Positions 1 to 18,524 of a stretch of 27,455 nt of DNA are shown one piece after another. Numbering within the stretch: position 1 is the stretch's first letter; every line of letters begins with the position of its first letter. The notes under the pieces were generated by a model. That model was not told the DNA's origin, ran no database searches, and saw only the letters and a list, made by a program, of their open reading frames with translations. The DNA is from a virus. The position numbers were made by a program, and so were the translations under genes. Where the stretch lies: positions 1 to 27,455 of IMG/VR virus record IMGVR_UViG_3300047551_001190; one strand, 5' to 3'.

Positions 1-66
1 CAGCACACCGATGGTACCTAGCCGCTGTCGGGGGGGTCGGGGTACGGTGGGGTCGCGCCTTGGGGT

Positions 67-83
67 TTTCCTACCGTAGGATG
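67..83 (+). repeat. Interrupted palindrome, copy 1
   Basis: First copy of the 17-base element TTTCCTACCGTAGGAAA (8-base arms around an unpaired C). The last two bases are TG instead of AA. It lies about 110 bases before the first gene and upstream of that gene's possible promoter. Confidence 0.9.
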
Positions 84-110
84 TTGTGACGTATCAGGCA
101 ATGCCATAAC

Positions 111-141
111 TTAGCAGAGCATGAAAGCATTTTGCTACACT
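111..141 (+). promoter_or_regulatory. Possible extended -10 promoter
   Basis: TACACT at 136-141 is preceded by TGC, as in an extended -10 promoter. A weak -35 candidate TTAGCA lies at 111-116 with a long 19-base spacer. It would place a start about 45 bases before the gene at 194. The -35 is poor, so this is tentative. Confidence 0.35.
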
Positions 142-193
142 AGAGTCACGGCGACGTTGCCGTAAACAACCGTTCTAACTTTTGGAGCATATT

Positions 194-760
194 ATGGGTA
201 CTAAGCAAAACACCAAACCAAGCAAAGTTGAAACAGTCTACTTATCCGCCGAATTGATCTTAGGCGGGATTCAAGAGTGTGCAATTGCACTGGCCGGTGA
301 GAGACGCGCAAGCGATAATCGCTTGCAAGTTTGGGGCGAATGGATTCCGAAGTTGCATGACGCTAAGATCAAGTTTGGTCGGCGCAATGGCAAAAATGCT
401 TGCCCAAACTCAATTGCATTTCACGATCAACTAGTTGCGGAAGGGTTATCGGTTAGCACTGCAAATGACTATTTAACGCTTTTTAGGCAGTGCGTAGAAA
501 GCGGGGAAACACCAGAAGATCTTAATCAGTATCGGAAAGACAAAGCAAAAGCGGCAAAAACAAAATCTAAAGCAAAAGAAGTTAAGGATTACGCTGAGAT
601 TTTGAAAGCTGCATTTCAGCATGATGGCGGGAATAGTTTTCACGCACTATGCACCGCCATCGAACACGCTTTCAATGATGCTGTTTATCCGACAATCTAT
701 GAAGGATTCAAGGATTACATGCTTGAATCTGGGGTGATTGAAGAAGTTAAATCTAAATAA
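194..760 (+). CDS. Hypothetical basic protein, possible DNA-binding
   Basis: A 188-residue protein of unrecognised family. The ATG at 194 is preferred because GGAG at 184-187 lies six bases before it; an in-frame TTG at 182 has no such site. The middle of the protein (LVAEGLSVSTANDYLTLFRQ) could form a helix-turn-helix, and it is followed by a Lys/Ala-rich stretch typical of a flexible basic linker; the C-terminal third is acidic-aromatic. It is soluble, with no signal peptide or membrane segment. It lies between palindrome copies 1 and 2 and is closed by a terminator at 783-807. Its position makes it a candidate regulator of the palindromes, but that is inference only. Confidence 0.75.
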   Translation: MGTKQNTKPSKVETVYLSAELILGGIQECAIALAGERRASDNRLQVWGEWIPKLHDAKIKFGRRNGKNACPNSIAFHDQLVAEGLSVSTANDYLTLFRQCVESGETPEDLNQYRKDKAKAAKTKSKAKEVKDYAEILKAAFQHDGGNSFHALCTAIEHAFNDAVYPTIYEGFKDYMLESGVIEEVKSK

Positions 761-761
761 T

Positions 762-778
762 TTTCCTACCGTAGGAAA
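762..778 (+). repeat. Interrupted palindrome, copy 2
   Basis: Perfect copy of TTTCCTACCGTAGGAAA starting two bases after the stop codon of the preceding gene and four bases before a terminator stem. Confidence 0.95.
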
Positions 779-782
779 TCTT

Positions 783-807
783 AGCCCGTCGAAAGACGGG
801 CTTTTTT
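783..807 (+). terminator. Rho-independent terminator with GAAA loop
   Basis: Arms AGCCCGTC (783-790) and GACGGGCT (795-802) enclose a GAAA tetraloop and are followed by a T run (802-807). The same hairpin recurs at 917-943. Confidence 0.92.
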
Positions 808-820
808 ATAGGAGTTTGCA

Positions 821-907
821 ATGGATAGATTCGACAGTTTCATGCTTGGTTACATGGTAGCAATGCTCATGATGACAATAGCCCTCTGGTTTCATGGAAT
901 TATTTAG
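821..907 (+). CDS. 28-residue membrane microprotein
   Basis: A short ORF with a good ribosome site (AGGAG at 810-814, six bases before the ATG). The peptide starts MDRFDSFMLGYMVAMLMM and ends in WFHGII. About 18 central residues are hydrophobic and Met-rich, so it would form one membrane-spanning helix. It sits alone between two identical terminators, so it is its own transcription unit or depends on read-through. No homology is recognised. Small membrane peptides of phages often affect host membranes, but nothing here shows that role. Confidence 0.55.
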   Translation: MDRFDSFMLGYMVAMLMMTIALWFHGII

Positions 908-916
908 GCTTGATTT

Positions 917-943
917 AGCCCGTCGAAAGACGGGCTTTTTTTT
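917..943 (+). terminator. Rho-independent terminator, duplicate of 783-807
   Basis: Arms AGCCCGTC (917-924) and GACGGGCT (929-936), GAAA loop, then eight T (936-943). The stem and loop are identical to those at 783-802. Confidence 0.92.
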
Positions 944-975
944 CGCCTGTATGTTCTACATTCTAGAACCTATAA

Positions 976-992
976 TTTCCTACCGTAGGAAA
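976..992 (+). repeat. Interrupted palindrome, copy 3
   Basis: Perfect copy of TTTCCTACCGTAGGAAA, 12 bases before the terminator stem at 1005. Confidence 0.95.
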
Positions 993-1004
993 ACTTGGGC
1001 TTGG

Positions 1005-1035
1005 CGTTATGCTGCGAGCAGCATAACGGTTTTTT
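1005..1035 (+). terminator. Rho-independent terminator
   Basis: Arms CGTTATGCTGC (1005-1015) and GCAGCATAACG (1018-1028) are perfectly complementary and are followed by T at 1030-1035. It is the third terminator within 255 bases, so transcription from the left is firmly stopped here. Confidence 0.88.
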
Positions 1036-1057
1036 CGCAATGTGTCAACCCCCCATT

Positions 1058-1085
1058 GATAGTAGTGACCGAGAGCAGCGGCGCG
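1058..1085 (+). repeat. 28-base direct repeat, unit A
   Basis: Begins GATAGTAGTGACCGAGAG and ends CAGCGGCGCG. It is repeated at 1160-1187 with one mismatch (C to A at the 13th base). A palindrome copy follows at 1130. Confidence 0.85.
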
Positions 1086-1129
1086 TTTTCGGAATTTATA
1101 ACTTGCACTATATTGCGTGTGACCAGACT

Positions 1130-1146
1130 TTTCCTACCGTAGGAAA
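1130..1146 (+). repeat. Interrupted palindrome, copy 4
   Basis: Perfect copy of TTTCCTACCGTAGGAAA between the two units of the 28-base direct repeat. Confidence 0.95.
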
Positions 1147-1159
1147 TATATTGCATGTG

Positions 1160-1187
1160 GATAGTAGTGACAGAGAGCAGCGGCGCG
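1160..1187 (+). repeat. 28-base direct repeat, unit B
   Basis: Second unit of the repeat at 1058-1085, 27 of 28 bases identical. It is followed by palindrome copy 5 at 1217, so repeat plus palindrome may have been duplicated together. Confidence 0.85.
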
Positions 1188-1216
1188 TCGATTTTCGTGC
1201 AGCAGATGACGCAGGA

Positions 1217-1233
1217 TTTCCTACCGTAGGAAG
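1217..1233 (+). repeat. Interrupted palindrome, copy 5
   Basis: Copy of TTTCCTACCGTAGGAAA with G in place of the last A. Confidence 0.93.
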
Positions 1234-1257
1234 TTTTGGCAGGATTAGGCACCAGAC

Positions 1258-1640
1258 TGAACTAAAACCTAATGTGGCATAGTTCAACCACATATCACGA
1301 TATGATAGCCACAAATACCCACAATCTCCACTTTATCAATATGCTAGTTTATGCAAGCAGATGATAAACGCATATAATGACATTTACTTATATATATTAC
1401 TATCACTATCACTTTATAATAGTATATGTAAACGTATGAAAATGACGTTCGTAAACCGGTTTTGCATAGGGTTTTTGGAGGTCTGCCAATTTAAATTAAT
1501 AAATTGTTTTATTTTAAATCTGGGGTGCTCCGACCCCCCCAAAACCCCAAAAACAGGGTTTTTGGCAGGACCATTTTTCGCCCTAAGCAAATCAATCACT
1601 TACCCGTCGACAATATAGCCACAAATAGCCACACTTACTT
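1258..1640. other. AT-rich, repeat-bearing segment; candidate replication origin
   Basis: Inverted repeats cluster at the left edge: TGAACTA/TAGTTCA (1258-1264, 1280-1286), ATGTGG/CCACAT (1272-1277, 1288-1293) and CATATC/GATATG (1291-1304). The sequence ATAGCCACAAATA followed by C or G and then CCACA occurs at about 1305 and again at about 1615. Bases 1381-1440 hold only 12 G or C in 60. GGGTTTTTGG occurs at 1469 and 1556, the second as part of a CCAAAAAC/GTTTTTGG hairpin (1547-1565). An easily melted stretch flanked by repeats fits an origin, but no initiator box is identifiable. Confidence 0.35.
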
Positions 1641-1701
1641 ACAAATACTTCTCAACACCCCACACTACCCCTAACCACCATTTCCCACCCAACATCTCAA
1701 T

Positions 1702-1730
1702 TTGACATCCCCTGCCACTTGTGGTATACT
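1702..1730 (+). promoter_or_regulatory. Near-consensus sigma70 promoter
   Basis: TTGACA (1702-1707), a 17-base spacer, then TATACT (1725-1730). This is the best match to the housekeeping consensus in the left part of the window. Transcription would start near 1737, giving a leader of about 600 bases before the first coding region at 2342. Confidence 0.85.
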
Positions 1731-1766
1731 CGAATTTCGAGGTTGGACAAGTCCTCCTCGACAGGT

Positions 1767-1783
1767 TTTCCTACCGTAGGAAA
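1767..1783 (+). repeat. Interrupted palindrome, copy 6
   Basis: Perfect copy of TTTCCTACCGTAGGAAA inside the leader, about 30 bases after the predicted transcription start and seven bases before the boxA. Confidence 0.95.
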
Positions 1784-1789
1784 ACCCCC

Positions 1790-1800
1790 GCTCTTTAACA
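1790..1800 (+). promoter_or_regulatory. boxA antitermination site
   Basis: GCTCTTTAACA followed by ATT matches the boxA of proteobacterial rRNA leaders, the RNA site bound by NusB with NusE (ribosomal protein S10). It lies about 53 bases after the predicted start of the 1702 promoter, as expected for an antitermination signal, and terminator-like hairpins follow downstream. Confidence 0.65.
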
Positions 1801-1963
1801 ATTCAAGCAAGTCCGTAGGCCAGATAGCCCATGCGTATGACCCTGCTCGCGACGAGCGGACATGGGTGCAGCAACCTAAACTGCGTGGCAGCAGTCTAAA
1901 AGCGAGCCGTGTGCATCGTGAACCGAGTAGCGACCACACCCAGCCAACCAACGCCCCTGACAA

Positions 1964-1980
1964 TTTCCTACCGTAGGAAA
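1964..1980 (+). repeat. Interrupted palindrome, copy 7
   Basis: Perfect copy of TTTCCTACCGTAGGAAA in the middle of the gene-free leader. Confidence 0.95.
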
Positions 1981-2082
1981 ACCAGCGAACCCGATTAGGT
2001 AGCACCCACCACCCCGCCCCTGAGTAAAAAGCCCTGCATCACACGCGACGTTATCGACAGTACCGGACATAGGCTCAGACAT

Positions 2083-2122
2083 ACAAGCTCGACCCACTCG
2101 ATGAGGGCTTGTGAGTTTTTTT
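2083..2122 (+). terminator. Possible terminator in the leader
   Basis: ACAAGC (2083-2088) pairs with GCTTGT (2107-2112), followed closely by seven T (2116-2122). The loop is 18 bases, so the hairpin is weaker than the others in this window. It would be a target for antitermination by the boxA system. Confidence 0.45.
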
Positions 2123-2278
2123 GGTGGTTGACACCCACCCCTGCGCCTTCGTTGAACCATTGGGGAACCCCCACTGCTTGCACATGCAGAAACGAAAAAC
2201 AGACTATCGAGGACATAACAGGACGTAGCACGTAGGGTATGGGTAACCGTGCCCCTCTTGGTGCGCCTTGTGCACCGT

Positions 2279-2310
2279 TGGACAAGTCTTGTCCATTTTT
2301 AATCTTTTTC
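2279..2310 (+). terminator. Possible terminator just before the first leader-driven gene
   Basis: TGGACAAG (2279-2286) and CTTGTCCA (2288-2295) are perfectly complementary, then ATTTTT and a second T run (2305-2309) that merges into palindrome copy 8. GTTGGACAAGTC also occurs at 1742-1753, at the start of the leader. Confidence 0.55.
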
Positions 2311-2323
2311 CTACCGTAGGAAA
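2307..2323 (+). repeat. Interrupted palindrome, copy 8
   Basis: Perfect copy; 18 bases separate it from the start codon at 2342. It is followed by ATCTTTACAGGAG, which continues into the ribosome site and is shared with copy 12. Confidence 0.95.
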
Positions 2324-2341
2324 TCTTTACAGGAGTGAATT

Positions 2342-2737
2342 ATGAAGATCGACACAAACGAACTTATCGGCGTTGCACTAGATTGGGTAGTCGCCCACTG
2401 CGAGAAGGAAGAAACACTCATATCCAACGGAAAGCTCAACACTTTCTGGACGGAGGACGGGTATCACCCATCAACAGATTGGTCGCATGGTGGGCCGATC
2501 ATTGAGTGGGAGTGGCTTGAAGTTGTGCCATGGCCAAACGAGTCCGCTTCCAATATGCGTTGGCGAGCCACCCAGCACGATACGCCCGTGACCACAAGTC
2601 AGACCGGTCCAACCCCACTCATCGCCGCCATGCGCTGTTACGTGGCAAGCAAGTTAGGCGACAGCGTGGAGGTGCCTGACGATGTACTGGAGAAATGCGA
2701 CCGTCACAACTTTGGCCCCCATCTAACCCCCCGCTAA
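2342..2737 (+). CDS. DUF2591-like phage protein
   Basis: 131 residues starting at an ATG after AGGAG. The N-terminal part (LIGVALDWVVAHCE) and the C-terminal signature (GPTPLIAAMRCYVASKLGD, then VEVPDDV) match the pattern of DUF2591, a family of small phage proteins of unknown function. The length is normal for that family. The protein is soluble and rich in Trp and acidic residues. It is the first gene after the 1702 promoter and its long boxA leader, so it should be made early if the leader is read through. Palindromes flank it on both sides. Confidence 0.8.
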   Translation: MKIDTNELIGVALDWVVAHCEKEETLISNGKLNTFWTEDGYHPSTDWSHGGPIIEWEWLEVVPWPNESASNMRWRATQHDTPVTTSQTGPTPLIAAMRCYVASKLGDSVEVPDDVLEKCDRHNFGPHLTPR

Positions 2738-2739
2738 AA

Positions 2740-2756
2740 ATTCCTACCGTAGGAAA
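2740..2756 (+). repeat. Interrupted palindrome, copy 9
   Basis: Copy with A for the first T. It begins three bases after the stop codon at 2737 and ends 26 bases before the next ATG. Confidence 0.95.
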
Positions 2757-2782
2757 TCTTTACACATAACAGGAGAGTAACC

Positions 2783-3985
2783 ATGCACGACCAGATCGAC
2801 ACCATTGAAATCCTTGCCCACATTCTGTACGACACACGCGAGTGGCACCGTCGAGAACAGATGAGGAACCCGTTGCATCATGCAATCTACAGCCTGATCT
2901 TTGAGAAGCCTGCACCCGATCTTGGGCCGGTTATCGAGTTGTGTGCACAATGGCCGCACGTAAGCAAGACCGACCCCACTAAAGTAGCTTTCACACAAGA
3001 CGAGAGCAAGGGTATTGCCGACCGTCAAACGGTCACAAACTTTGGTCGGTATGTGCGGAAGTTCTATAGCCCTGCGATCATCAGCGACCACGAGCTGCGC
3101 GACATCGCAGCAAGACTCAAGCCCGACGAGATGCGGTTCGTTACAGACGGTGCGGAGATTTATCGTGCCGTGATTCACGGTCCCACATCGTGCATGAGCA
3201 AATCAAGCGAGTGGGCAGACTACGACGAGCATCCATACCGTGTGTATGACCCTGAGTTGGGTTGGAAGTTGGCTGTGCGGTATGGGCCTACGGGTGATGT
3301 GCTCGGTAGGTGCTGGGTGTACGACAACGCCAAGCGCAAGGGTTTCGTGCGATCCTATAAAAAATGCCCACGCGGTGGATACAGCCACAGCGACGAGGTG
3401 CTCGAAGCATGGCTAACCGAGCAGGGTATCGAGAGGGTGCGTGGTTGGCATCGGTTGAACGCCCAAATCAAAATCATCGATGCGGGTAATGGGCAGCTTG
3501 TAGCACCCTATCTGGACGGTGAATCACAGTACGTGGACGAGGATGGGTACATCACAACCGAGAGTGATGATACCTACGAGTGCTGCCGCACAGACGGTTA
3601 CAGCGACGAGCAGGGAGGTGGACATGAGTGCTCTCACTGTGGTGCTAGGCACAGACAGTACGTCTACGAGAACGAGGGTGTCACGGCAGGGTACTACGGC
3701 GACAACTGGGTAGGCCCATGTTGTGAGCACAACTACGTGCAAGTGATCGGTCGAAGTGGCAGCGAGTACTACGTGCATGACAACGATGCAGTGGAAGTTG
3801 ATGGTGAGTGGTATCACGACAGATACCTGCATGACAACGACATCGTGATGATTACCCGTGGGACTTATGACGGTGAGTACGCACACATTGACGACACAAC
3901 CTGTGACCCTGACACAGGCGACGTATGGCACATCGACGACACGCACGAGGACGCACCCCACAACCGCGTGGCCGAGGACGCGTAA
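2783..3985 (+). CDS. Hypothetical acidic protein with Cys-rich segment
   Basis: 400 residues with a clear AGGAG ribosome site. No family is recognised for the N-terminal 250 residues. From about residue 265 there is a Cys/His-rich stretch (YECCRTDGY, HECSHCGARH, GPCCEHN) that could bind one or two zinc ions. After it come repeated Asp-rich phrases (YYVHDNDAVEVDGEWYHD, then YLHDNDIVMI), an internal repeat of about 18 residues. The C-terminus is strongly Asp/His/Thr-rich. The composition suggests a soluble metal-binding protein. It lies alone between palindromes 9 and 10. Function unknown. Confidence 0.8.
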   Translation: MHDQIDTIEILAHILYDTREWHRREQMRNPLHHAIYSLIFEKPAPDLGPVIELCAQWPHVSKTDPTKVAFTQDESKGIADRQTVTNFGRYVRKFYSPAIISDHELRDIAARLKPDEMRFVTDGAEIYRAVIHGPTSCMSKSSEWADYDEHPYRVYDPELGWKLAVRYGPTGDVLGRCWVYDNAKRKGFVRSYKKCPRGGYSHSDEVLEAWLTEQGIERVRGWHRLNAQIKIIDAGNGQLVAPYLDGESQYVDEDGYITTESDDTYECCRTDGYSDEQGGGHECSHCGARHRQYVYENEGVTAGYYGDNWVGPCCEHNYVQVIGRSGSEYYVHDNDAVEVDGEWYHDRYLHDNDIVMITRGTYDGEYAHIDDTTCDPDTGDVWHIDDTHEDAPHNRVAEDA

Positions 3986-4007
3986 CACCGACCCAACCAA
4001 CCGAACT

Positions 4008-4024
4008 TTTCCTACCGTAGGAAA
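4008..4024 (+). repeat. Interrupted palindrome, copy 10
   Basis: Perfect copy, 24 bases before the ATG at 4049. Confidence 0.95.
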
Positions 4025-4048
4025 AACTACACTCATAAGGAAATTACC

Positions 4049-5050
4049 ATGTCATTTGAACCTACCAAGATCAACACCAAAACACTTTATCAAGTGTTAC
4101 ACAAAGCACTGGGCAGCAAACGACCCCATGCAACGACAGGCACAGCAGCTTTCAGCGCGTGGCTACAAACTAAATTTCCCGCCAACACTTGGCATGTGGA
4201 CGGTGCGGGTAACATGCACGTTGACCTGCGCTTGGACAAGAAACACCGCACACTGTTTGTGGCCCACGTTGATACCGTGCACAAGACCGTGGGTAAGAAC
4301 AACTACAAGCACAGCATCACCGACAACATTATTCGGGCTGATGGGGATGTGCTCGGTGCAGATGATGGTGCGGGTGTGGCGTTACTCATGCACATGATGG
4401 CGCATGGCATCCCTGCGTACTACTTGTTTACCCAAGGCGAGGAGCGTGGTGGGATCGGTGCTAAGTATGTTGCCAAGCACTATGCAGAAACGTTGGTTGA
4501 GTTTGATCGGGCGATAGCTTTCGATCGTAGGGGTAAGGACTCCATCATTACTTATCAGGGTGGGGAGCGGTGCTGCTCGGACAAGTTTGCAGATGCGCTT
4601 GCAGATGAGCTGAACCTCAGACACAACGACTTCCTCTACAGCCCCGACACTTCAGGTGTCTACACCGACACGGCTGAATTTACTTTGTTGATACCCGAGT
4701 GCACCAACATCAGTGTGGGGTATGACCACGAGCACACGACCAAAGAATCCCTTGACATCAACCACTACGATGCACTGGCTAAAGCAGTGGTGCAGATTGA
4801 TTGGGATGCGCTGCCTGCTGCGCGTGATCCCTTGGTCGAGGACAGTCTGTACAAGTTCAACACCACAAGTACACATGGCGGCGATTGGGCTGGGGGGTGG
4901 GGTAAGAAGCATTACAACACCTACGATCTGTACGCTAAGTATGACAACTTGGATCTGTACGGTATGACAAAGCATGAGATGTTGGACATGGCGTACTCCG
5001 ACCCCGAACTGTTGGTTGCGCTGATTCGTAACGAGCTTGGACTTAACTAA
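4049..5050 (+). CDS. Clan MH zinc peptidase (M20/M28/M42-like)
   Basis: 333 residues. The metal-binding pattern of two-zinc aminopeptidases is present in order: AHVDTV (H73, D75), LGADDGAG (D105, D106), QGEERGG (E131, E132) and YDHEHTTKE (H227/H229). In the family these bind two zinc ions and activate water to remove residues from small peptides. No signal peptide, so it should act in the host cytoplasm. It is the first gene of a run ending at 5593: the next start follows its stop by 12 bases and the later genes overlap. Exact family assignment is uncertain; the two-metal peptidase fold is fairly sure. Peptidases of this kind are uncommon in phage genomes and the substrate is unknown. Confidence 0.78.
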   Translation: MSFEPTKINTKTLYQVLHKALGSKRPHATTGTAAFSAWLQTKFPANTWHVDGAGNMHVDLRLDKKHRTLFVAHVDTVHKTVGKNNYKHSITDNIIRADGDVLGADDGAGVALLMHMMAHGIPAYYLFTQGEERGGIGAKYVAKHYAETLVEFDRAIAFDRRGKDSIITYQGGERCCSDKFADALADELNLRHNDFLYSPDTSGVYTDTAEFTLLIPECTNISVGYDHEHTTKESLDINHYDALAKAVVQIDWDALPAARDPLVEDSLYKFNTTSTHGGDWAGGWGKKHYNTYDLYAKYDNLDLYGMTKHEMLDMAYSDPELLVALIRNELGLN

Positions 5051-5062
5051 AGGAGAGTGATG

Positions 5063-5275
5063 ATGGCTTTATGGATGCACTGCCGCTCATGCGGCGATGA
5101 CCTGCGCGACAGGGTTCACATGTTGTCGGGCTTGTGTTGGGACTGCCGCGAGCAAGCGGCTAAAGAAGTTCGCAACAAGTGGTGCGTGGTTCCCATGCAC
5201 AAGTCAAACTATTTTTTCTGTACCAACAAGGATGACCTGCATGGCATCAACAACAAAGGAGGGCTAGTGCGATGA
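5063..5275 (+). CDS. Small zinc-ribbon protein
   Basis: 70 residues. The ATG at 5063 is chosen because it lies seven bases after AGGAG; an ATG at 5060 and a GTG at 5057 are too close. CRSCGDD and LCWDCREQ form a two-knuckle C4 zinc site, and the rest is basic. It follows the peptidase gene closely and its stop codon overlaps the next start (ATGA at 5272). Function unknown; nucleic-acid or protein binding is likely. Confidence 0.75.
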   Translation: MALWMHCRSCGDDLRDRVHMLSGLCWDCREQAAKEVRNKWCVVPMHKSNYFFCTNKDDLHGINNKGGLVR

Positions 5276-5517
5276 AATATATTGAAATGACTGACGAGGA
5301 ATACGAGAACGCATGTGCTGCGTTGCAGGACAAGCTTGTCGAGCTACTGCACGAGGATGATAGCCCTATGGAGGTAGGTATGCACGTTATGAGTGCCTTG
5401 GTTTCACGGGCTAGTTTCCGTAAAGGGCTGACTCAGTTTGAGTGCATCAATCATTTTGTGACGATTGCCAAGGAAGCTTATGACCAAGGAGATGAAGATG
5501 AATCGAACACCGGATGA
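5272..5517 (+). CDS. Hypothetical acidic protein
   Basis: 81 residues starting at an ATG that overlaps the previous stop codon, implying coupled translation (AAAGGAGG lies upstream). Mostly helical and acidic, with MTDEEYENACAALQDKLVEL at the start. No family recognised and no Cys motif or membrane segment. Its end overlaps the start of the small membrane peptide gene. Confidence 0.7.
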   Translation: MKYIEMTDEEYENACAALQDKLVELLHEDDSPMEVGMHVMSALVSRASFRKGLTQFECINHFVTIAKEAYDQGDEDESNTG

Positions 5518-5593
5518 ACTAGTTGTACTGGGTATGGTTGTGGTATCTATTATTTTATTTGGTCTTATCTTGACAGGGGTTGTAGTTTTGTAG
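5498..5593 (+). CDS. 31-residue membrane peptide
   Basis: A short ORF overlapping the preceding gene by 20 bases. AGGAG at 5487-5491 is six bases before the ATG at 5498 (an ATG at 5492 is too close). The peptide has a polar start (MNRTPDE) and then 23 continuous hydrophobic residues ending the protein, a single membrane helix. It is the second membrane microprotein of the left region. Function unknown. Confidence 0.55.
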   Translation: MNRTPDELVVLGMVVVSIILFGLILTGVVVL

Positions 5594-5599
5594 TATCAT
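5570..5599 (+). promoter_or_regulatory. Possible sigma70 promoter
   Basis: TTGACA (5570-5575), an 18-base spacer and TATCAT (5594-5599). It starts inside the end of the small membrane peptide gene and would give a transcript beginning about 20 bases before palindrome copy 11, serving the gene trio at 5659-9084. Confidence 0.5.
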
Positions 5600-5625
5600 A
5601 TGGTTTCAGTTGTACTTTATTAACA

Positions 5626-5642
5626 TTTCCTACCGTAGGAAA
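5626..5642 (+). repeat. Interrupted palindrome, copy 11
   Basis: Perfect copy, 16 bases before the ATG at 5659, followed by the shared ACAGGAGAGT ribosome site. Confidence 0.95.
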
Positions 5643-5658
5643 ACAACAGGAGAGTAGC

Positions 5659-6543
5659 ATGACTAAGCTTGATCTCACTGCACCACAGTTGCAGTCTATC
5701 CCCACACTTCAAACATCGTTCATCGGTGTGGACTTTTCTTTCTCAGTCTGGACGGGTCGCAAGAAGGACAAGGCTGTGTCTGCCGAGGTTACTCGCAGCA
5801 AGGGTGCCAAGGACAACACCGCCAACGTCACCAAAGACCTGCTTGCAGGTAACGCGCAGCTTGAGGCGATCCACAAGTTCATAGCGAATGTTCGCAACGA
5901 GCACTACGAGCTAACCCAACCGTGGGCAGCGATGCGAGTCATCAAGAACGATGTGTTCTTCAATAAGTACACACCACGTATGAACGCACACGGTGTGACG
6001 TTCTGGGCAATGGTGCAGAACTTCTTGGATTCGTACGACACAGACGTATCGGCTGCGGCTTTCTCACTGGGTGGGCTGTTCAATCGTGATGACTACCCAT
6101 CACGCGATGTACTGGCTACGAAGTTTAGGTTTGTGATTGCACCCGTGCCTATCGCTACGGACTTTCGCACTGAGGTGATGGACGAGGCTGCGAAGTACAT
6201 CCAACAGGAGTACACCAAGCACTATGGTGACCTGATACTTAATGCGATGGGTGATGCGTGGGATCGGTTGCACGATGCACTGGCCCGTATGTCCGAGCGT
6301 CTTGACTACGCAGGCAAGGAAGATAAGAAAATCTTTAGGGATAGTCTGGTTGAGAACGCACGGGAGATGATTGACTTGTTGGCTGACTTCAACCTCACGC
6401 AGGATGACAACATGGAGCGAGCGCGGGTCAAGCTGATGGATGCACTGGATGGTGTCACACCGGAAGCACTACGCGAGGATGATTACTTTAGGCACGATGT
6501 TAAGCGCAAGGTTGACTCAATACTCAAAGACCTTGCTTGGTAG
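5659..6543 (+). CDS. Partner of MoxR/VWA pair, possibly DUF3150-like
   Basis: 294 residues, ATG after ACAGGAGAGT. Mostly helical and charged, with no catalytic motif I can name. Its position directly before a MoxR-type ATPase and a VWA-domain protein, and its helical make-up, recall the DUF3150 proteins that accompany such pairs in phages and plasmids. That family name is from context and general resemblance and should be treated as tentative. A likely role is as substrate adaptor or structural partner of the ATPase. The gene ends 11 bases before a strong terminator stem, so the ATPase may need its own transcript or read-through. Confidence 0.65.
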   Translation: MTKLDLTAPQLQSIPTLQTSFIGVDFSFSVWTGRKKDKAVSAEVTRSKGAKDNTANVTKDLLAGNAQLEAIHKFIANVRNEHYELTQPWAAMRVIKNDVFFNKYTPRMNAHGVTFWAMVQNFLDSYDTDVSAAAFSLGGLFNRDDYPSRDVLATKFRFVIAPVPIATDFRTEVMDEAAKYIQQEYTKHYGDLILNAMGDAWDRLHDALARMSERLDYAGKEDKKIFRDSLVENAREMIDLLADFNLTQDDNMERARVKLMDALDGVTPEALREDDYFRHDVKRKVDSILKDLAW

Positions 6544-6554
6544 GTAATGTAATG

Positions 6555-6583
6555 GGGGGTGTTGAGTTCACCCCCACGTTTTT
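6555..6583 (+). terminator. Rho-independent terminator fused to palindrome 12
   Basis: GGGGGTG (6555-6561) and CACCCCC (6569-6575) around a seven-base loop, then ACGTTTTT. The T run is the left edge of palindrome copy 12, so the two signals share bases. Confidence 0.8.
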
Positions 6584-6597
6584 CATACCGTAGGAAA
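6581..6597 (+). repeat. Interrupted palindrome, copy 12 (variant)
   Basis: TTTCATACCGTAGGAAA: the fifth base is A instead of C, the only internal mismatch among the 13 copies. It is 18 bases before the ATG at 6616 and followed by ATCTTTACAGGAG as in copy 8. Confidence 0.92.
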
Positions 6598-6615
6598 TCT
6601 TTACAGGAGAGTTTT

Positions 6616-7740
6616 ATGATTACCGCATCTTCGATGTACGCACTGAATATCAATGAGTGCGTAGACCTCATTCAAATGGTTGGCTCTAAGCGCACGGTGG
6701 TCGTGCGTGGCAACATGGGTTGGGGTAAGACCTCAATCCTTAAGATGTTGAAGCAACGGCTCGGCGACAAGTACGCCTACGCATACTTCGACTGCACAAC
6801 CAAGATGGACAGCGGCGACATTCAGATCCCACAGTTTGCCAAGTCTGATAATGGTACGGACTTCGTACGCTACGTACCCACTGAGGAGTATGGGTTGCAT
6901 CACGGCAAGCCTGTGGTGCTGTGTGTGGATGAGGTTGGTAAGGCTGACCGCAGTGTGAAGAACGCACTGATGCGTGACATGTTAGAGCGTGACCGTCACC
7001 CCGATGGCAGCATCATCTTTGCTACGACAAACAACGCGCTTGAGAAGTTGGGCGACATGCTCATGCCGCATCACCGCAACCGTCTGATCGTGGTCAACAT
7101 GCGTAACTCTACGCAAGAAGAGTGGATCGAGAACTTCGCATACAAGGCAAACATCCACCCCTCGGTTATCTCATGGGCAGGTGAGCACCCTGAGTTGTTT
7201 CAATCCTTCACTGATTTGATGGATGAGAAGGGTGACATATCCCAAGTCAACCGCCAAAGCAACCGCATGATTTACATCCCTGGTGATGCGGATCGTGAAG
7301 CCTTCGTCACAGGTCGTTCGCTTGAAGCAGCAAGTGATGTGATCCATGCGCTTGAGGGTAGGGTTACCGACAAAGTTATTACAGCAAGTCTGATCGGTAC
7401 GATTGGTGCGGCTGCTGCACAAAGCTTGGCTACTTACCTTGCTATGGTCAACGACTTACCCAAGCTCAACGACATCAAGACTTCACCCAAGACTGCGCTT
7501 GTACCCACAACCACAGCGGCTGCTTGCATGATCGTGCACCGTACCTTGTCTGTCATCGAGCGTAACTGGATGGACTCATGGATGGATTACTTGGTGCGAC
7601 TGCCTAAACCTGTACAAGGTATGTTTGCCATGACTGCTAAAAAAGAAACGTATCACAAGCGAAGTGTGGTGATGACGAACGGTAAGTTTCAGGCTTGGGC
7701 CTTAGCCAACAACTACCTAACAACTAACGACAAGATTTAG
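6616..7740 (+). CDS. MoxR/CobS-like AAA+ ATPase
   Basis: 374 residues, starting at the ATG with AGGAG seven bases upstream; the frame is open further back but only through the palindrome. Walker A is GNMGWGKT (residues 32-39), Walker B is VVLCVDEVGK (D105, E106), sensor 1 is IIFATTN, and PHHRNRL probably holds the arginine finger. These features fit the MoxR branch of AAA+ proteins, which form rings that remodel partner proteins using ATP. MoxR-type ATPases typically work with a VWA-domain protein, and one is encoded next, after a 180-base structured gap. The C-terminal 130 residues are not assigned. Confidence 0.88.
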   Translation: MITASSMYALNINECVDLIQMVGSKRTVVVRGNMGWGKTSILKMLKQRLGDKYAYAYFDCTTKMDSGDIQIPQFAKSDNGTDFVRYVPTEEYGLHHGKPVVLCVDEVGKADRSVKNALMRDMLERDRHPDGSIIFATTNNALEKLGDMLMPHHRNRLIVVNMRNSTQEEWIENFAYKANIHPSVISWAGEHPELFQSFTDLMDEKGDISQVNRQSNRMIYIPGDADREAFVTGRSLEAASDVIHALEGRVTDKVITASLIGTIGAAAAQSLATYLAMVNDLPKLNDIKTSPKTALVPTTTAAACMIVHRTLSVIERNWMDSWMDYLVRLPKPVQGMFAMTAKKETYHKRSVVMTNGKFQAWALANNYLTTNDKI

Positions 7741-7770
7741 CCCTCTTTCATAAAAGCTGGGCGCACTAGC

Positions 7771-7867
7771 GGGTAGATGTGAGTGTGTGCTTAGGTTGAT
7801 AGGCAAGAGGGCTAGGAAGGAACTGCCTATCAACATCCAAGACGCGAGGGGGGCGCGGAATCTACCT
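7771..7867 (+). ncRNA. Candidate three-way-junction RNA
   Basis: Between the ATPase and VWA genes. Outer stem GGTAGAT/ATCTACC (7772-7778, 7860-7866) encloses an 11-base perfect stem GTTGATAGGCA/TGCCTATCAAC (7795-7805, 7824-7834) and a CGCG/CGCG hairpin (7843-7846, 7854-7857). An alternative pairing GCGCAC/GTGTGC (7761-7766, 7785-7790) would loop out the left outer strand. No T run follows, so it is not a simple terminator. It may be a regulatory leader element for the VWA gene or a processed small RNA. Confidence 0.5.
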
Positions 7868-7887
7868 TACCCCCCACCACTACATAA

Positions 7888-7904
7888 ATTCCTACCGTAG
7901 GAAA
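7888..7904 (+). repeat. Interrupted palindrome, copy 13
   Basis: Copy with A for the first T; 16 bases before the ATG at 7921 and followed by TTACAGGAGAGT. It is the last copy in the left-hand gene arm; none is seen in the dense operon to the right. Confidence 0.95.
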
Positions 7905-7920
7905 TTACAGGAGAGTAAAC

Positions 7921-9084
7921 ATGTTGATCTTTGGACAAGCATTGACTGCTGCTCAACGACTTGAGCGCAACATACAAATCGTGATGGGGCATGAGTCTGT
8001 CCTCGCAATGGGGCCAACCATCATGCTTGGTACAAAATCTATCGGTGATGTACCGACAGCACAAACGGATGGACTTAACGAAACGTATGGGGAAGCGTTT
8101 ATAGGCTTACTCAACGACCCCGAGTTCAGATACCTGATTCTGCACGAGTGCGGCCACAAGATGTACCGACACATGACTGCATGGCAGCACCTCTATGAAG
8201 AGAACCACCGCAAAGCTAACATCGCCTGCGACATTATCCTGAACGATTGGCTCAACACCATCGCAGCTAAGTACCCCGACTTCATCATGATGCCTCGGGT
8301 GGGTGGGGTGACCGGCGCACAATTCAACATCGACTCCACAGATAAAGATGTGCATGAGGTGTATGCCCTGCTGCCTGACGATTTGCAGGGTGACAACTTC
8401 GACGAGCATGATTGGGAGTCTGCTAAAGAACTTACACCACAAGAACAACAAGAGATTGCCAAGCAAATCGATGAAGCACTACGCCAAGGGCAACTGCTTG
8501 CAAGTAAGGTGGGATCGGGTGGTGATCGACGCATTGACGAGCTGCTGCAACCCAAGGTTGATTGGCGTACACAACTAGCTGACTACCTCATGTCGCACAG
8601 CAAGGGGCGTGGCTTACCTACGTGGCGCAAACCTAATCGCAAGATGCTCACGCATGGCGTGTACCTGCCAGGGCAGATTGCTGAAGCGATGGGCGAGATC
8701 GTGATTGCCGTGGATACATCAGGGTCTATCGATAACAACATGCTAAAAACTTTTTTGACAGAGATCGTAAGCATTGCCCACCTGATGCAGCCTGAAGCAC
8801 TGCGCCTTTTATATTGGGATACAACGGTATGTGCTGATGAAAAGTATGAGCAAGAAGCGTATGATGACATGGCCGAGTCCACTAAACCTGCGGGTGGGGG
8901 TGGCACGATGGTGGAGTGCGTACCCAAGTACATGAGCGACTTTGGTATATCGCCGCAGATTGTGGTGGTGTTCACTGACGGTGTGCTTGGTGGTTCGTGG
9001 GGTACTTGGAGCTGCCCCGTGCTGTGGTGCATTACAACAAAAAAGAAAGCACCGATTGGTTCTACATTACATATTGATCTATAA
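7921..9084 (+). CDS. Metallopeptidase-like plus VWA domain protein (DUF2201-like)
   Basis: 387 residues. The N-terminal half carries LHECGHKMYRH (HExxH at residues 75-79), a zincin-type metal site as in the putative metallopeptidase domain of DUF2201 proteins. The C-terminal half is a VWA-like domain with an intact metal-ion-dependent adhesion site: VDTSGS (D265), GGGGTMVE and VFTDG (D353). In such proteins the VWA part binds partner proteins through a metal ion and docks on a MoxR ATPase. The ATPase is encoded just upstream, so the two probably form a complex, like CobS/CobT in architecture. Whether the zinc site is catalytic is not shown. Cytoplasmic, no signal peptide. Confidence 0.85.
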   Translation: MLIFGQALTAAQRLERNIQIVMGHESVLAMGPTIMLGTKSIGDVPTAQTDGLNETYGEAFIGLLNDPEFRYLILHECGHKMYRHMTAWQHLYEENHRKANIACDIILNDWLNTIAAKYPDFIMMPRVGGVTGAQFNIDSTDKDVHEVYALLPDDLQGDNFDEHDWESAKELTPQEQQEIAKQIDEALRQGQLLASKVGSGGDRRIDELLQPKVDWRTQLADYLMSHSKGRGLPTWRKPNRKMLTHGVYLPGQIAEAMGEIVIAVDTSGSIDNNMLKTFLTEIVSIAHLMQPEALRLLYWDTTVCADEKYEQEAYDDMAESTKPAGGGGTMVECVPKYMSDFGISPQIVVVFTDGVLGGSWGTWSCPVLWCITTKKKAPIGSTLHIDL

Positions 9085-9096
9085 CAGGAGAGTACG

Positions 9097-10020
9097 ATGG
9101 CATCTAAACATTCAATACTATCGCAGCCTTACTTCCCGCCGCATGTGCGTAGGGTAGAGGACGCAACGAAACGCTTTGCCAAGGATGATGTGTTCGAGCA
9201 TTTGATGGCTGCTGCCAACATCCAACTGTCTGTGCTTATGGTGGAGCTGAAGAAGGCTATGCCGACTGTGCAATTTGGGGTTGTGCCTGATGCACCGATG
9301 CACTGGAACGTTGCGGTGTATCGCAAGGGGCATCTGTACTGTATGGGCGAGATTGGCTACGGTAAGTTTATGGCTAACTCTGAGAAAGAAGTTTACATAG
9401 TACGCAGCCCTCGCATATTGAACACACGGTACGCAGAAAAAAATGTTATGCGTAATGCACATGTGACCCAAAGCGTGGACAGCGCGGTGTCAATAGCCTC
9501 TGCAAAATTTATACCCCTGTCAGTGGAAGATGAGGTGGAAGCAACAAAGCACATGCCTCGCAAGAAACTTGTTGAGGCTCTTGCTAGTAAACAGACAAGG
9601 CTAAACGATCTGGGTGTTGTGCATTTTAATGATGTCCTTGCTGAGTTTGAGAACTTACGTGCACAGGGTGTGACGTTTAAGACAGAAGCCTTCATCAACA
9701 TCGCAAGCAAGTTTGATGAACTGACCGACGACTACAACCGTGAAATGTTACGACACACAAACATGTACTACGTATGGATTATGGAGCAGCGGGGTGTGCA
9801 ACATGCCGTGGTTGTGACCGTTGATAACATGAGGAACAAAGGGACGATTTCAGTGGATGGACCGAAACAGGTATTCAAGCTATCTGACTTGCCGATGGAC
9901 ATCGCTGCAAAGATTGCAACGTTATCAATGAGTGATTATCGGTCTTACGTGGAAGGGCTTGGTGTGCGGTTAGACGACACACATTTTTGGATCGAGCGAG
10001 ATGACCAAGGACGAACCTGA
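9097..10020 (+). CDS. Hypothetical protein with C-terminal module shared with next gene
   Basis: 307 residues with a good ribosome site (ACAGGAGAGT), 12 bases after the VWA gene. Family not recognised. Mixed alpha/beta character, no catalytic motif. The last 40 residues (from DLPMDIAAKI to VEGLGVRLDDTHFWIE) align with the C-terminal part of the next protein, indicating a duplicated module. It probably belongs to the same transcript as the MoxR/VWA trio. The stop codon lies 20 bases inside the next gene. Confidence 0.75.
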   Translation: MASKHSILSQPYFPPHVRRVEDATKRFAKDDVFEHLMAAANIQLSVLMVELKKAMPTVQFGVVPDAPMHWNVAVYRKGHLYCMGEIGYGKFMANSEKEVYIVRSPRILNTRYAEKNVMRNAHVTQSVDSAVSIASAKFIPLSVEDEVEATKHMPRKKLVEALASKQTRLNDLGVVHFNDVLAEFENLRAQGVTFKTEAFINIASKFDELTDDYNREMLRHTNMYYVWIMEQRGVQHAVVVTVDNMRNKGTISVDGPKQVFKLSDLPMDIAAKIATLSMSDYRSYVEGLGVRLDDTHFWIERDDQGRT

Positions 10021-10321
10021 GTACAAGAACCTAAGCAACATACTACGTGTCCACTTTGAAGAGGATGGGTTCCTATCCATCATGCCATTCGATACCTTGC
10101 GGTGGTTACTACAACCACCCATCTACACAAAGAACATGGCAGATGTTCCCGAATGGGTGCAGCAGCGTATTGCCATATTGATGATGTTACAGCCTAGAGA
10201 GTTTGTAGAGGGTGTTGGCAGACGAGTGGATGAGTCAACATTTTGGGTTTACTTCGAGGAAACCAATGACACCGGAAGCAAAAGTAAAAATGAAAGTACG
10301 AAACGTACTGAAAGAACTTAA
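10001..10321 (+). CDS. Hypothetical protein, paralogous C-terminal module
   Basis: 106 residues. The ATG at 10001 lies within the end of the previous gene; only a weak purine-rich site precedes it, so translation is probably coupled. Residues about 46-84 (DVPEWVQQRIAILMM to FVEGVGRRVDESTFWVYFE) match the end of the preceding protein, including the spacing of the VEG-G-R-DE/D-FW positions. The tail is basic and Ser/Thr-rich and overlaps the VRR-NUC gene in another frame. Function unknown. Confidence 0.65.
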   Translation: MTKDEPEYKNLSNILRVHFEEDGFLSIMPFDTLRWLLQPPIYTKNMADVPEWVQQRIAILMMLQPREFVEGVGRRVDESTFWVYFEETNDTGSKSKNESTKRTERT

Positions 10322-10553
10322 TGCCTACTACTCCATGCCCATCACAGGCGGCTATGGAAACTCAGGTGCACCAGACTTTCTGGTGTGCTTGAACGGTAGG
10401 TTTATCGGGATCGAATGTAAAGCAGGGCGCAACAAGCCCACCGCTTTACAGGAGAAGAACCTTGCACAAATCCGAAGTGCAGGGGGTATTGCAATCGTAA
10501 TCAACGAGGAGAATGTAAATGGACTTAAAGAAACGCTCACCCAAAAAACGTAG
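10266..10553 (+). CDS. VRR-NUC domain nuclease
   Basis: 95 residues from the ATG at 10266, chosen because GAGGA lies five bases upstream and because this length is normal for single-domain phage VRR-NUC proteins; the open frame extends back to 10212. The catalytic PD-(D/E)XK pattern is GAPDFLV (D37), GIECKA (E50, K52) and PTALQ (Q62). Such enzymes cleave structured DNA, for example at junctions, and fit with recombination or replication in the phage. It overlaps the genes on both sides. Confidence 0.88.
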   Translation: MTPEAKVKMKVRNVLKELNAYYSMPITGGYGNSGAPDFLVCLNGRFIGIECKAGRNKPTALQEKNLAQIRSAGGIAIVINEENVNGLKETLTQKT

Positions 10554-10812
10554 ACCCGTGCGATCTGCGGAAGCTCTGCATATCCTTGCCCTTCGTTCCC
10601 AAGGAAAGACCGTTCATCAGATAAGTGTTGAAACCAAACGTGCGAAATCTACAATTTTCAGAGTCATCGCTAACGCTGCCAAAAGCACTTCATCCTTGAT
10701 AGTAGTTCCCAAGCAAGAGGAAGTGCGCGTTGAGCCGACGTTTGCACAACGCATGGCAATTAAGTTGTGTCGGTTTTTTGGCGTGACTGACACCATGTAC
10801 AAACATAACTAG
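10519..10812 (+). CDS. Small basic helix-turn-helix protein
   Basis: 97 residues. ATG at 10519 preceded by GAGGAG; it overlaps the nuclease gene by 35 bases. A very basic N-terminus (MDLKKRSPKKRRPVR) is followed by ILALRSQGKTVHQISVETKR and KSTIFRVI, which has the pattern of a resolvase/transposase-type helix-turn-helix. The C-terminal third has no clear feature. A DNA-binding regulator is likely; the target is unknown. Confidence 0.7.
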   Translation: MDLKKRSPKKRRPVRSAEALHILALRSQGKTVHQISVETKRAKSTIFRVIANAAKSTSSLIVVPKQEEVRVEPTFAQRMAIKLCRFFGVTDTMYKHN

Positions 10813-10820
10813 GAGTAGTA

Positions 10821-10997
10821 ATGGACATCAAGACAACATCAGAGAGCACCAACGTGCTCGAAACATTTAAACGTCATTGGAGGCTGCTCAAGCAGCCCTA
10901 CCCGTGGAGAGATCCCAAAGTTATCAAGGAGCGTAAGCGTATCGCCGCACTAGACAAAGCGCGTATCGAATTCAGACTAAGTGGGGGTGTGGAATGA
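10821..10997 (+). CDS. 58-residue hypothetical protein
   Basis: Short ORF filling the gap between the HTH gene and the next. AGGAG at 10811-10815 is five bases before the ATG, and its TGA overlaps the next ATG (ATGA at 10994), which strongly supports it as a real operon member. The peptide is basic, with FKRHWRLLKQPYPWRDPKVI and a helical Arg/Lys-rich end. No family recognised. Confidence 0.65.
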   Translation: MDIKTTSESTNVLETFKRHWRLLKQPYPWRDPKVIKERKRIAALDKARIEFRLSGGVE

Positions 10998-11197
10998 ACG
11001 ACGAGATTGATAACTTAAAGAAGGAGTTTCTTGATAGAAGGCGCAGAAGGCGAAGAGATGATTTTGCTATGGCTGCTATCACAGGAATCTTAGCCGGTAA
11101 GTGGGGGCAGATGCCGCAGTATCGACCAGAGGAAGCATTTGCTGACTTTGCATACAAGATGGCAGACGCAATGATTAAACGGAGCGAGCATGAGTAA
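10994..11197 (+). CDS. Hypothetical protein with Arg-rich stretch
   Basis: 67 residues, start overlapping the previous stop. The sequence begins MNDEIDNLKKEFLDRRRRRRRDD, a helix with seven consecutive Arg, then an alanine-rich segment and a short helical end. It may bind nucleic acid through the Arg run. The stop codon overlaps the next start by eight bases. Family unknown. Confidence 0.65.
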   Translation: MNDEIDNLKKEFLDRRRRRRRDDFAMAAITGILAGKWGQMPQYRPEEAFADFAYKMADAMIKRSEHE

Positions 11198-11522
11198 TAT
11201 AAAAATAGCTAACGAAGCTAGGAAAATTTACGGTAAAGATATAGATGACATGACGCTCGATGAACTTAAAAAGTTCAGAGCTTGGTTAGCAAGAGAGCCT
11301 AAAGCAGAACTTGTGCCTCAACCTGTGTTCATCATGCACGGCATTACATATCTGCCTAGCTACAAAGATAAACATAAATGGATCGGCCCTGGTACGCCCG
11401 ATAACCGCAGGGAGTACACCACAACAGAACTGCTTGAACCTGGGTCCGTTGCCAAGTTAAGCGTAAAGATGTTGTGGCACAGGTATTGGACAGAAGAGAT
11501 TAAAGGATGGAGTATGACATGA
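11190..11522 (+). CDS. Hypothetical protein
   Basis: 110 residues; GGAGCG lies six bases before the ATG at 11190. The first 40 residues are helical (DDMTLDELKKFRAWL); the rest is beta-rich with many aromatic residues (WHRYWTEEIKGW near the end). No motif identifies a function. Overlaps both neighbours, as is usual in this operon. Confidence 0.65.
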   Translation: MSNIKIANEARKIYGKDIDDMTLDELKKFRAWLAREPKAELVPQPVFIMHGITYLPSYKDKHKWIGPGTPDNRREYTTTELLEPGSVAKLSVKMLWHRYWTEEIKGWSMT

Positions 11523-11746
11523 ACGACGTTGTTAACCACCCCAAGCACTACACCTCACACCCTAGCGGCGTTGAGTGCATACAGATTACCGAGCACATGA
11601 ACTTCAACCTAGGAAACGCTACAAAATATATTTGGCGAGCCTCATTGAAAGGCAAAGAGATTGAAGATTTAAGAAAAGCAAGATGGTACATAGACCGCGA
11701 GATTGCACGGATATTGAATGATAAGGAGATGAATCGTGAGACGTAA
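11519..11746 (+). CDS. DUF3310 family protein
   Basis: 75 residues. The family signature is clear: VNHPKHYTSHPSGVECI near the start, then NATKYIWRASLKG and EDLRKARWYIDREI. DUF3310 proteins are widespread small phage proteins, sometimes described as nucleotide-kinase-like, without a firm function. The ATG at 11519 is chosen over an in-frame ATG at 11507 because GGAG lies six bases upstream, it overlaps the previous TGA as ATGA, and the protein then begins as family members usually do. Confidence 0.85.
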   Translation: MNDVVNHPKHYTSHPSGVECIQITEHMNFNLGNATKYIWRASLKGKEIEDLRKARWYIDREIARILNDKEMNRET

Positions 11747-11981
11747 AAAGCCTAACGAATTTTATTTAAGTTCTGAAAAAATACCTGCCCTTGAAAAAGA
11801 AAAAACTTTTAAGGTGTATGTACGCAACCCACTTGGCATCAAGCTAAGAGAGTTTTGTTTTGTATTTGTAGAAGGTAAACGCTACCTTGCAGATGTTATT
11901 ACGGGTAGTTTGTACTCTACGATGACGGGGTATTGCACGAGCACCAAGCAACTTAAATTGGTTGGAGGAATAAATGAATAA
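11736..11981 (+). CDS. Hypothetical protein, GTG start
   Basis: 81 residues beginning at GTG, supported by AAGGAG (11723-11728) seven bases upstream and overlap with the end of the DUF3310 gene. Basic N-terminus, then a beta-rich core (TFKVYVRNPLGIKLREFCFV, then EGKRYLADVITGSLYS) suggesting a small barrel. Family not recognised. Confidence 0.65.
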   Translation: MRRKKPNEFYLSSEKIPALEKEKTFKVYVRNPLGIKLREFCFVFVEGKRYLADVITGSLYSTMTGYCTSTKQLKLVGGINE

Positions 11982-12156
11982 ATGTATAACAATATATTAC
12001 AGCGAAGCTAGGGACTTAACAAAGGTTGAGTTTACTGAGCTTTTTGAAAACGCTGATTGGCTCCTAAAAGCCGATGTGCTCAAAGATGCAATACACGAGC
12101 TTACAGATGTGTATGACAAAACTTTAATAGGGTTTAAAGAAGGGAAAAAAGCATGA
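11974..12156 (+). CDS. 60-residue hypothetical protein
   Basis: ATG with GGAGGA about five bases upstream, overlapping the previous gene by eight bases and the next by four. Acidic helical protein (LTKVEFTELFENADWLLKAD). No family recognised; the tight overlaps are the main evidence that it is real. Confidence 0.6.
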   Translation: MNKCITIYYSEARDLTKVEFTELFENADWLLKADVLKDAIHELTDVYDKTLIGFKEGKKA

Positions 12157-12341
12157 CTAGCCCACCGTGGAAGTTCGCCATGCTTGCCGCATGGCTTGAA
12201 GGCTACGCCGAAGGCTTGCCTGACTACTGCACAGCAGAGAAGTTCAAGATCAAAGAAGCTGCTGAGTTGTTAATGGAAGTGTATGAACACAACATGAAGG
12301 AGAGCGAGAAATGGAAGAAAGAAATGAGGGATCAGGCATAA
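12153..12341 (+). CDS. 62-residue hypothetical protein
   Basis: The start codon shares ATGA with the previous stop. The peptide is helical: WKFAMLAAWLEGYAEGL, then EKFKIKEAAELLMEVYEHN. Its 3' end overlaps the next gene by 31 bases in another frame. No family recognised. Confidence 0.6.
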   Translation: MTSPPWKFAMLAAWLEGYAEGLPDYCTAEKFKIKEAAELLMEVYEHNMKESEKWKKEMRDQA

Positions 12342-12643: not shown

Positions 12644-12672
12644 CACGAGACGACATCAGAGCAAGGGGGTGA
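12640..12672 (+). pseudogene. Ten-codon remnant of the next gene's 3' end
   Basis: A tiny ORF encoding MTRDDIRARG. Its end and the bases after it (GAGCAAGGGGGTGAGCAATG, 12659-12678) nearly repeat the junction at 12890-12908 (GAGCAAGGGGTGAGCAATG), where the protein ends AIRARGEQ. One extra G shifts the frame and ends it early. It is probably left from duplication and loss of a copy of the next gene, though it could also serve as a coupling peptide. Confidence 0.45.
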
Positions 12673-12675
12673 GCA

Positions 12676-13658: not shown

Positions 13659-13668
13659 GAGAAATAAA

Positions 13669-16940: not shown

Positions 16941-16952
16941 TATGGAGAGTAG

Positions 16953-18512: not shown

Positions 18513-18524
18513 TGCCACTATATT
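18496..18524 (+). promoter_or_regulatory. Near-consensus sigma70 promoter
   Basis: TTGACA (18496-18501), exactly 17 bases, then TATATT (18519-18524), one base from consensus. It is placed in the last codons of the helicase gene and would start transcription near 18531, about 20 bases before the ATG at 18553. Confidence 0.8.

Follow-up and report, generated by a model that had tools for sequence, protein, structure and literature searches.

The virion RNA polymerase of phage N4 uses hairpin promoters, each a short stem with a small loop, that are located upstream of early genes. In the temperate Cluster A mycobacteriophages, such as L5 (repressor gp71) and TipsytheTRex, one repressor acts on 20-30 asymmetric, oriented sites, the stoperators, and stops elongation (PMC9283540, PMC6550527), and in the Cluster K mycobacteriophages the start-associated sequence (SAS), an asymmetric 13-bp element (GGGATAGGAGCCC), sits 3-7 bp from the start codon, with ~11-19 copies of SAS and extended SAS (ESAS) near the start codons of non-structural genes, 17-bp inverted repeats within the ESAS, and no known partner protein (PMC3203893). 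The subject here is a 17-base interrupted palindrome, TTTCCTACCGTAGGAAA, of which there are 13 copies in a 27,455-base virus fragment from IMG/VR (the window, meaning the whole stretch of DNA that was analyzed), together with open reading frame 1 (ORF1), the first early gene beside them. Comparison of this locus with its relatives led us to conclude that the ORF1 product is, to judge from the sequences, a DNA-binding protein, probably dimeric, and that the palindromes would be its operators. A first-pass annotation of the window had stated that no such element was known, a statement that overlooks both the mycobacteriophage stoperators and the start-associated sequences.

All 13 copies are on the + strand with C as the centre base, and each is at the coordinate originally reported for it. 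Eight are exact, four have one mismatch (1217, 2740, 6581 and 7888) and one has two (67), so that twelve, and not the eleven first counted, match at 16 or 17 positions. A chance repeat was ruled out, since only 0.03 matches to TTTCCTACCGTAGGAAA with up to three mismatches were expected in the window. As had been claimed, none of the 13 overlaps a gene within positions 1-9084, even though ~76% of that region is coding (P ~4e-9 under random placement), and no copies were found in window positions 7905-27455. The claim that they mark nearly every gene junction needed narrowing: it holds for gaps of more than ~40 bp, but not for tight junctions, with no copy at 5050/5057, 5275/5272, 9084/9097 or in the packed operon to 22991. 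Six copies lie 16-26 nt ahead of gene start codons, and five (976-1964) are within a ~1.4-kb stretch without convincing genes.

194..757, + strand: ORF1, 188 aa, product proposed to regulate by binding the palindromes as a dimer; helix-turn-helix (HTH) predicted, helices 71-82 and 87-103
67..83, + strand: palindrome copy 1, TTTCCTACCGTAGGATG, in the divergent region between late (terminase) genes and ORF1
762..778, + strand: copy 2, exact, directly 5' of an intrinsic terminator (783-802)
976..992, + strand: copy 3, exact, flanked by terminators 917-936 and 1005-1028
1130..1146, + strand: copy 4, exact
1217..1233, + strand: copy 5, one mismatch
1767..1783, + strand: copy 6, exact
1964..1980, + strand: copy 7, exact
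2307..2323, + strand: copy 8, exact, 18 nt to the ATG of a NinX-like gene and just 3' of terminator 2279-2295
2740..2756, + strand: copy 9, one mismatch, 26 nt to an ATG
4008..4024, + strand: copy 10, exact, 24 nt to an ATG
5626..5642, + strand: copy 11, exact, 16 nt to an ATG
6581..6597, + strand: copy 12, one mismatch, 18 nt to an ATG, adjoining terminator 6555-6575 on its 3' side
7888..7904, + strand: copy 13, one mismatch, 16 nt to an ATG

About 150 further loci were gathered with the DUF3150-like and AAA proteins as profile queries. At least four copies of a lineage-specific interrupted palindrome were present in 125 of 151 IMG/VR loci with a DUF3150-like/AAA/VWA module, and in none of 84 unrelated viral contigs or 151 shuffles. 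Locus L152, for instance, has the same gene order as the window at ~50% protein identity and is without the 17-mer, and it has nine copies of another palindrome, CTTATAC-N4-GTATAAG, some of them at the corresponding gene junctions (one, near 7336, is within a longer inverted repeat, CGTAAAGTTCTTTTTTT ... AAAAAAAGAACTTTACG). Other loci have GTTAGTG-N3-CACTAAC, GTTAGGGAATTCCCTAAC, GGTAGTCC-N2-GGACTACC, GTTATACG-N-CGTATAAC, TTGATGACA-N2-TGTCATCAA or still other families, and in long genomes the copies are mostly restricted to one 10-20 kb arm. The arms are near-uniform inside one genome and widely different across genomes, a pattern that demands a sequence-specific reader acting in trans and differing from lineage to lineage. 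In L250 two symmetric variants, with TTATGC and TTATGG arms, occur together (8965, 9964, 12373 and 14497), possibly a change of specificity in progress. A host operator is not supported, as the 16 matches to the 17-mer in genome contigs are scattered. On two Marinifilum chromosomes, palindromes resembling TTTCCTANNNTAGGAAA are clustered, some in one orientation and some in the other, and partly ~42 bp apart (L129 6972-7324, L131 1340-1692); they probably belong to an unrelated regulator.

The evidence that ORF1 would be this reader comes chiefly from phages that are nearly identical but differ in their palindrome: L181 or L177 versus L182, and L188 versus L209. In these swap pairs, identity is mostly 95-100% for the structural, terminase, DUF3150-like and AAA proteins (the few exceptions include VWA in L188/L209), whereas ORF1 gives no match or ~20% identity; in L181/L182, where ORF1 has been replaced, a 97-aa protein encoded beside the polymerase gene retains 89% identity. 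L182 and L209, on the other hand, are only ~83% identical in their DUF3150-like protein, yet have the palindrome GGTAGTCC in common and homologous ORF1 proteins. Among all pairs with a core identity of at least 0.9, ORF1 identity was 0.59-1.00 where the palindrome was the same (n = 52) and 0.06-0.20 where it was different, except in L169/L170 and L170/L174 (0.75-0.77); L310/L311 were left out, having been scored as different through a naming artefact when both have the GTAACATGTTAC core. The L170/L174 proteins have identical C-termini, and their differences are N-terminal and include the segment RRFVTTEMGSRL versus KRWIQQQIGSRL. The rule extends to further classes of ORF1: L250/L280, L268/L270 and L276/L287 each have the palindrome, or most of it, and ORF1 in common.

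Co-variation was also located within the protein. An unsupervised mutual-information scan of 39 non-redundant ORF1 proteins placed most of the top palindrome-tracking columns in one segment, KRYWQQQIGAR, where QQQ is found with GTTA sites, K/R-Q with GTAG and G-K/R-Y with TTAT, and which is within a long, confident AlphaFold helix (87-119, mean predicted local distance difference test score, pLDDT, of 92). The sites, their distribution, the co-replacement of ORF1 and the specificity-tracking helix can all be read from the sequences directly; they point to a putative new family of phage DNA-binding regulators with quickly changing DNA specificity. Co-replacement and co-variation likewise give strong backing to the partner that the first-pass annotation had suggested for the sites, the product of 194-760.

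No homology was detected by profile comparison between the ORF1 of the window and the type common among its relatives, and the two were therefore treated as separate families. A search with the window-type ORF1 led to L359, a locus that the 17-mer had missed and that carries copies of TTTCATACNGTATGAAA, a symmetric change of one base per arm relative to the window palindrome. When TTTCATACNGTATGAAA was used for scanning, 15 contigs with at least three copies were found, 14 of which encode a window-type ORF1, with E values of 1e-23 to 1e-46; the common type was encoded by none of them, and the window-type protein was absent from all other relatives compared. This reciprocal result supports a link between ORF1 and the palindrome, short of proof. 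ORF1 had no convincing match in Pfam and no match among isolated phages.

Across loci, the copies are concentrated 10-40 nt ahead of start codons or just inside genes, and a start codon or ribosome-binding site is almost never overlapped. Sigma-70-like promoters are in excess on the coding strand with their start 40-60 bp 5' of a palindrome (63 matches in that bin versus 9 on the minus strand), an excess present in 32 of 64 sequence clusters, and the two best rightward promoters of the window (1702-1730 and 5570-5599) each have a palindrome downstream. In many genomes the first copy precedes the predicted ORF1 start by ~75-85 bp, and in several it is just downstream of a predicted leftward promoter, a position from which ORF1 appears placed for early production and for action at both arms while sparing itself. 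Under the mechanism we propose, ORF1, the first early gene, would be transcribed from a promoter of host type within the divergent region, and its product, a small all-helical protein, would bind the palindromes on double-stranded DNA, probably as a homodimer, to occupy one site beside the leftward (structural) promoter and ~10 sites in early-gene leaders, many of which follow a host-type promoter at ~40-90 bp and come immediately ahead of ribosome-binding sites. Bound there, it would block initiation or elongation as a stoperator or roadblock repressor, to time early and late transcription or to shut it off, and co-infecting phages of its own type might be silenced as well. Every lineage would have its own palindrome/ORF1 pair, the replacement of ORF1 being accompanied by that of the whole site set. 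Physical binding, dimerization and the sign of regulation are what we infer here, and to the full explanation, i.e., that the palindromes are operators of ORF1 acting as a stoperator-like roadblock repressor, we assign a probability of roughly 0.68.

Several points weigh against this explanation. The comparison of swap pairs spans ~10-20 kb and not whole genomes, and the association of the window-type ORF1 with its palindrome could be due to shared ancestry, as the tree of the DUF3150-like protein groups the carriers (support 87/96), and therefore the argument rests mainly on the swap pairs. The model of the window ORF1 does contain a helix-turn-helix, but at only moderate pLDDT (73), and Foldseek searches of PDB folds with both ORF1 models returned no DNA-binding relative. 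The promoters are consensus matches only, no gene clearly follows several of the copies in the window (976-1964), and those at 2740 and 4008 have no visible promoter at short distance.

The first-pass annotation had envisaged a phage regulatory signal read either at the RNA level or by an asymmetric binding protein, and while the regulatory signal is supported, neither of its proposed forms is. For an RNA hairpin in the 5' leader, which would act in processing, stability or translational control, possibly with ORF1 bound to it as RNA, it can be said that, where a start codon was identified, most of the copies are transcribed and lie 10-40 nt ahead of it, and that their arms could pair as a 7-8 bp hairpin. 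However, the deviations in 734 copies examined (635 of them exact) comprised 11 G-U versus 15 mirror-image A-C pairs and only 11 compensatory changes; with no G-U excess and so few compensatory changes, nothing favours an RNA stem. The sparing of start codons and ribosome-binding sites, the many genomes in which the first copy is upstream of the ORF1 transcript start by the distance given above, and the lack of a match in Rfam also speak against a hairpin, which we consider improbable. An oriented, asymmetric element was ruled out by the centre base, which is T, A or G in close relatives and any of the four bases in phages that share the window's type of ORF1, and an orientation bias (p ≤ 0.05) was found in only 14 of 117 loci. 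The C centre in 13/13 copies is a feature of the window's own lineage, and the argument from asymmetry fails because centre orientation is not kept in sister lineages. Copies in both orientations in relatives, which had been expected to count against any regulatory signal, were found, and it is the oriented element that falls with them; the regulatory signal survives.

The main rival arises because terminators abut several of the copies: ORF1 on the DNA palindromes might activate or antiterminate, loading onto host RNA polymerase as it passes, or modifying it, and so bringing about readthrough of the early-arm terminators. Intrinsic terminators are directly 5' of 2307 and 6581 and directly 3' of 762 and 976, the leaders that hold the sites are transcribed and close to promoters, and the searches turned up no phage RNA polymerase that would serve middle or late transcription; nevertheless, known antiterminators use one or two sites per operon rather than one at every gene, and a copy 3' of a terminator cannot rescue readthrough of that terminator, so that we regard this as unlikely, although the most probable of the rivals. 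That ORF1 co-varies for some other reason, with the palindromes read by another phage protein, draws on the recognizable HTH domains of three window proteins (10519-10812, 13124-13456 and 18966-19214), when ORF1 convincingly matches no known family, but it has to contend with the 97-aa protein that persisted through the L181/L182 swap and with helix-level covariation located inside ORF1, and it appears scarcely as probable as an RNA hairpin. Least probable of all would be promoters for a phage RNA polymerase like those of N4, an idea that fits sites that come after terminators and before genes, and an AAA gene with distant homologues in N4-like phages. The arms and loops vary freely between lineages, tracking ORF1 rather than a polymerase, and no T7-type single-subunit RNA polymerase (PF00940) was detected in 19 relatives by a search that found the T7 positive control, although a very divergent virion polymerase would escape it.

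The genes ahead of which the proposed operators of ORF1 stand, and the two promoters, are these:

1702..1730, + strand: predicted sigma-70 promoter, TTGACA-17-TATACT, consensus match only, 5' of the palindrome at 1767
2342..2737, + strand: NinX-like protein (PF10765)
2783..3985, + strand: 400-aa protein, no family match
4049..5050, + strand: M28/M20-like peptidase
5570..5599, + strand: predicted sigma-70 promoter, TTGACA-18-TATCAT, consensus match only, 5' of the palindrome at 5626
5659..6543, + strand: DUF3150-like protein, 294 aa, from the annotation of a cyanophage homologue
6616..7740, + strand: MoxR-type AAA ATPase
7921..9084, + strand: VWA/DUF2201 protein

The DUF3150-like, MoxR AAA and VWA genes (5659-9084) are a conserved module in the ~150 related loci, and cyanophage Pag-Yong1 has distant homologues of them. 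Rightward of the palindromes are genes for AAA/MoxR and VWA proteins, polymerase A, an SNF2 helicase, a PD-(D/E)XK nuclease and a DUF927 protein, and a 1385-aa leftward protein (23272-27429) matches the large polyvalent domain LPD39 and DarB-like antirestriction families. Six relatives (G001-G005 and G007) share the region and its palindrome and prolong the locus leftwards, where genes for the large terminase, portal and capsid are among the divergent neighbours; the terminase is nearest to those of the 60-kb phages of the HTVC023P/DSL-LC04 group. Between palindromes, identical 20-base intrinsic terminator stems (AGCCCGTCGAAAGACGGGCT) at 783-802 and 917-936 enclose a possible 28-aa ORF (822-908). 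A 28-base element, GATAGTAGTGAC(C/A)GAGAGCAGCGGCGCG, occurs twice in the window, at 1058-1085 and 1160-1187, the second beginning 13 bases past a palindrome, and its cognate, GAT(A/G)CCAGTT...GAG..GCG..G, is a second conserved signal ~7-14 bases 3' of the palindrome in many relatives.

With these results, a large group of uncultured phages gains a defined regulon, along with a candidate for its master regulator, a protein that belongs to no known family. The joint change of specificity in a regulator and its sites is a long-standing problem in regulatory evolution, and near-identical phages in which the regulator and a dozen dispersed operators have been swapped are natural experiments on it; as the palindrome is readable from sequence alone, a protein-DNA specificity code is directly testable on dozens of natural pairs. 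A broader proposal, which we offer tentatively and at somewhat less than even odds, is that ORF1, in podovirus-like phages that are obligately lytic, founds a new superfamily of proteins that bind DNA sequence-specifically. Their specificity and 10-20 dispersed operators would turn over together by gene replacement, driven by selection for escape from cross-silencing among co-infecting relatives, i.e., superinfection immunity without lysogeny and with a readable helix-to-base code. Neither a tyrosine integrase nor a serine resolvase was found in 20 long relatives, a result with which extrachromosomal lysogeny remains compatible.

Among the described systems, N4 differs in that its promoters serve a polymerase, and here none was found and the palindromes follow predicted promoters of host type and change together with a small protein that putatively binds DNA. 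Cluster K SAS/ESAS are similar in being a short repeated element close to start codons, but the palindromes have another sequence, are 10-40 nt from the start (16-26 nt in the window), vary with lineage and have a named partner gene. In its working, the palindrome system would appear to be most like the Cluster A stoperators, with many copies of one short site in the intergenic gaps of an early arm, one of them at an early promoter, and a single phage-coded protein along with which specificity varies between related phages. The differences are that the Cluster A sites are asymmetric 13-mers in one orientation, each bound by a monomer, whereas those here are palindromes in nearly all lineages, with an orientation that is uniform in the window but varies among sister lineages that have its ORF1 type; that sequence turnover is complete here, versus a few positions in Cluster A; that the long relatives had no integrase; and that ORF1, judged from the Pfam and PDB searches and not by direct comparison with L5 gp71, is without a known family. 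On this comparison of sequences, we rate the system as one of a known kind, but with a protein family that appears to be new.

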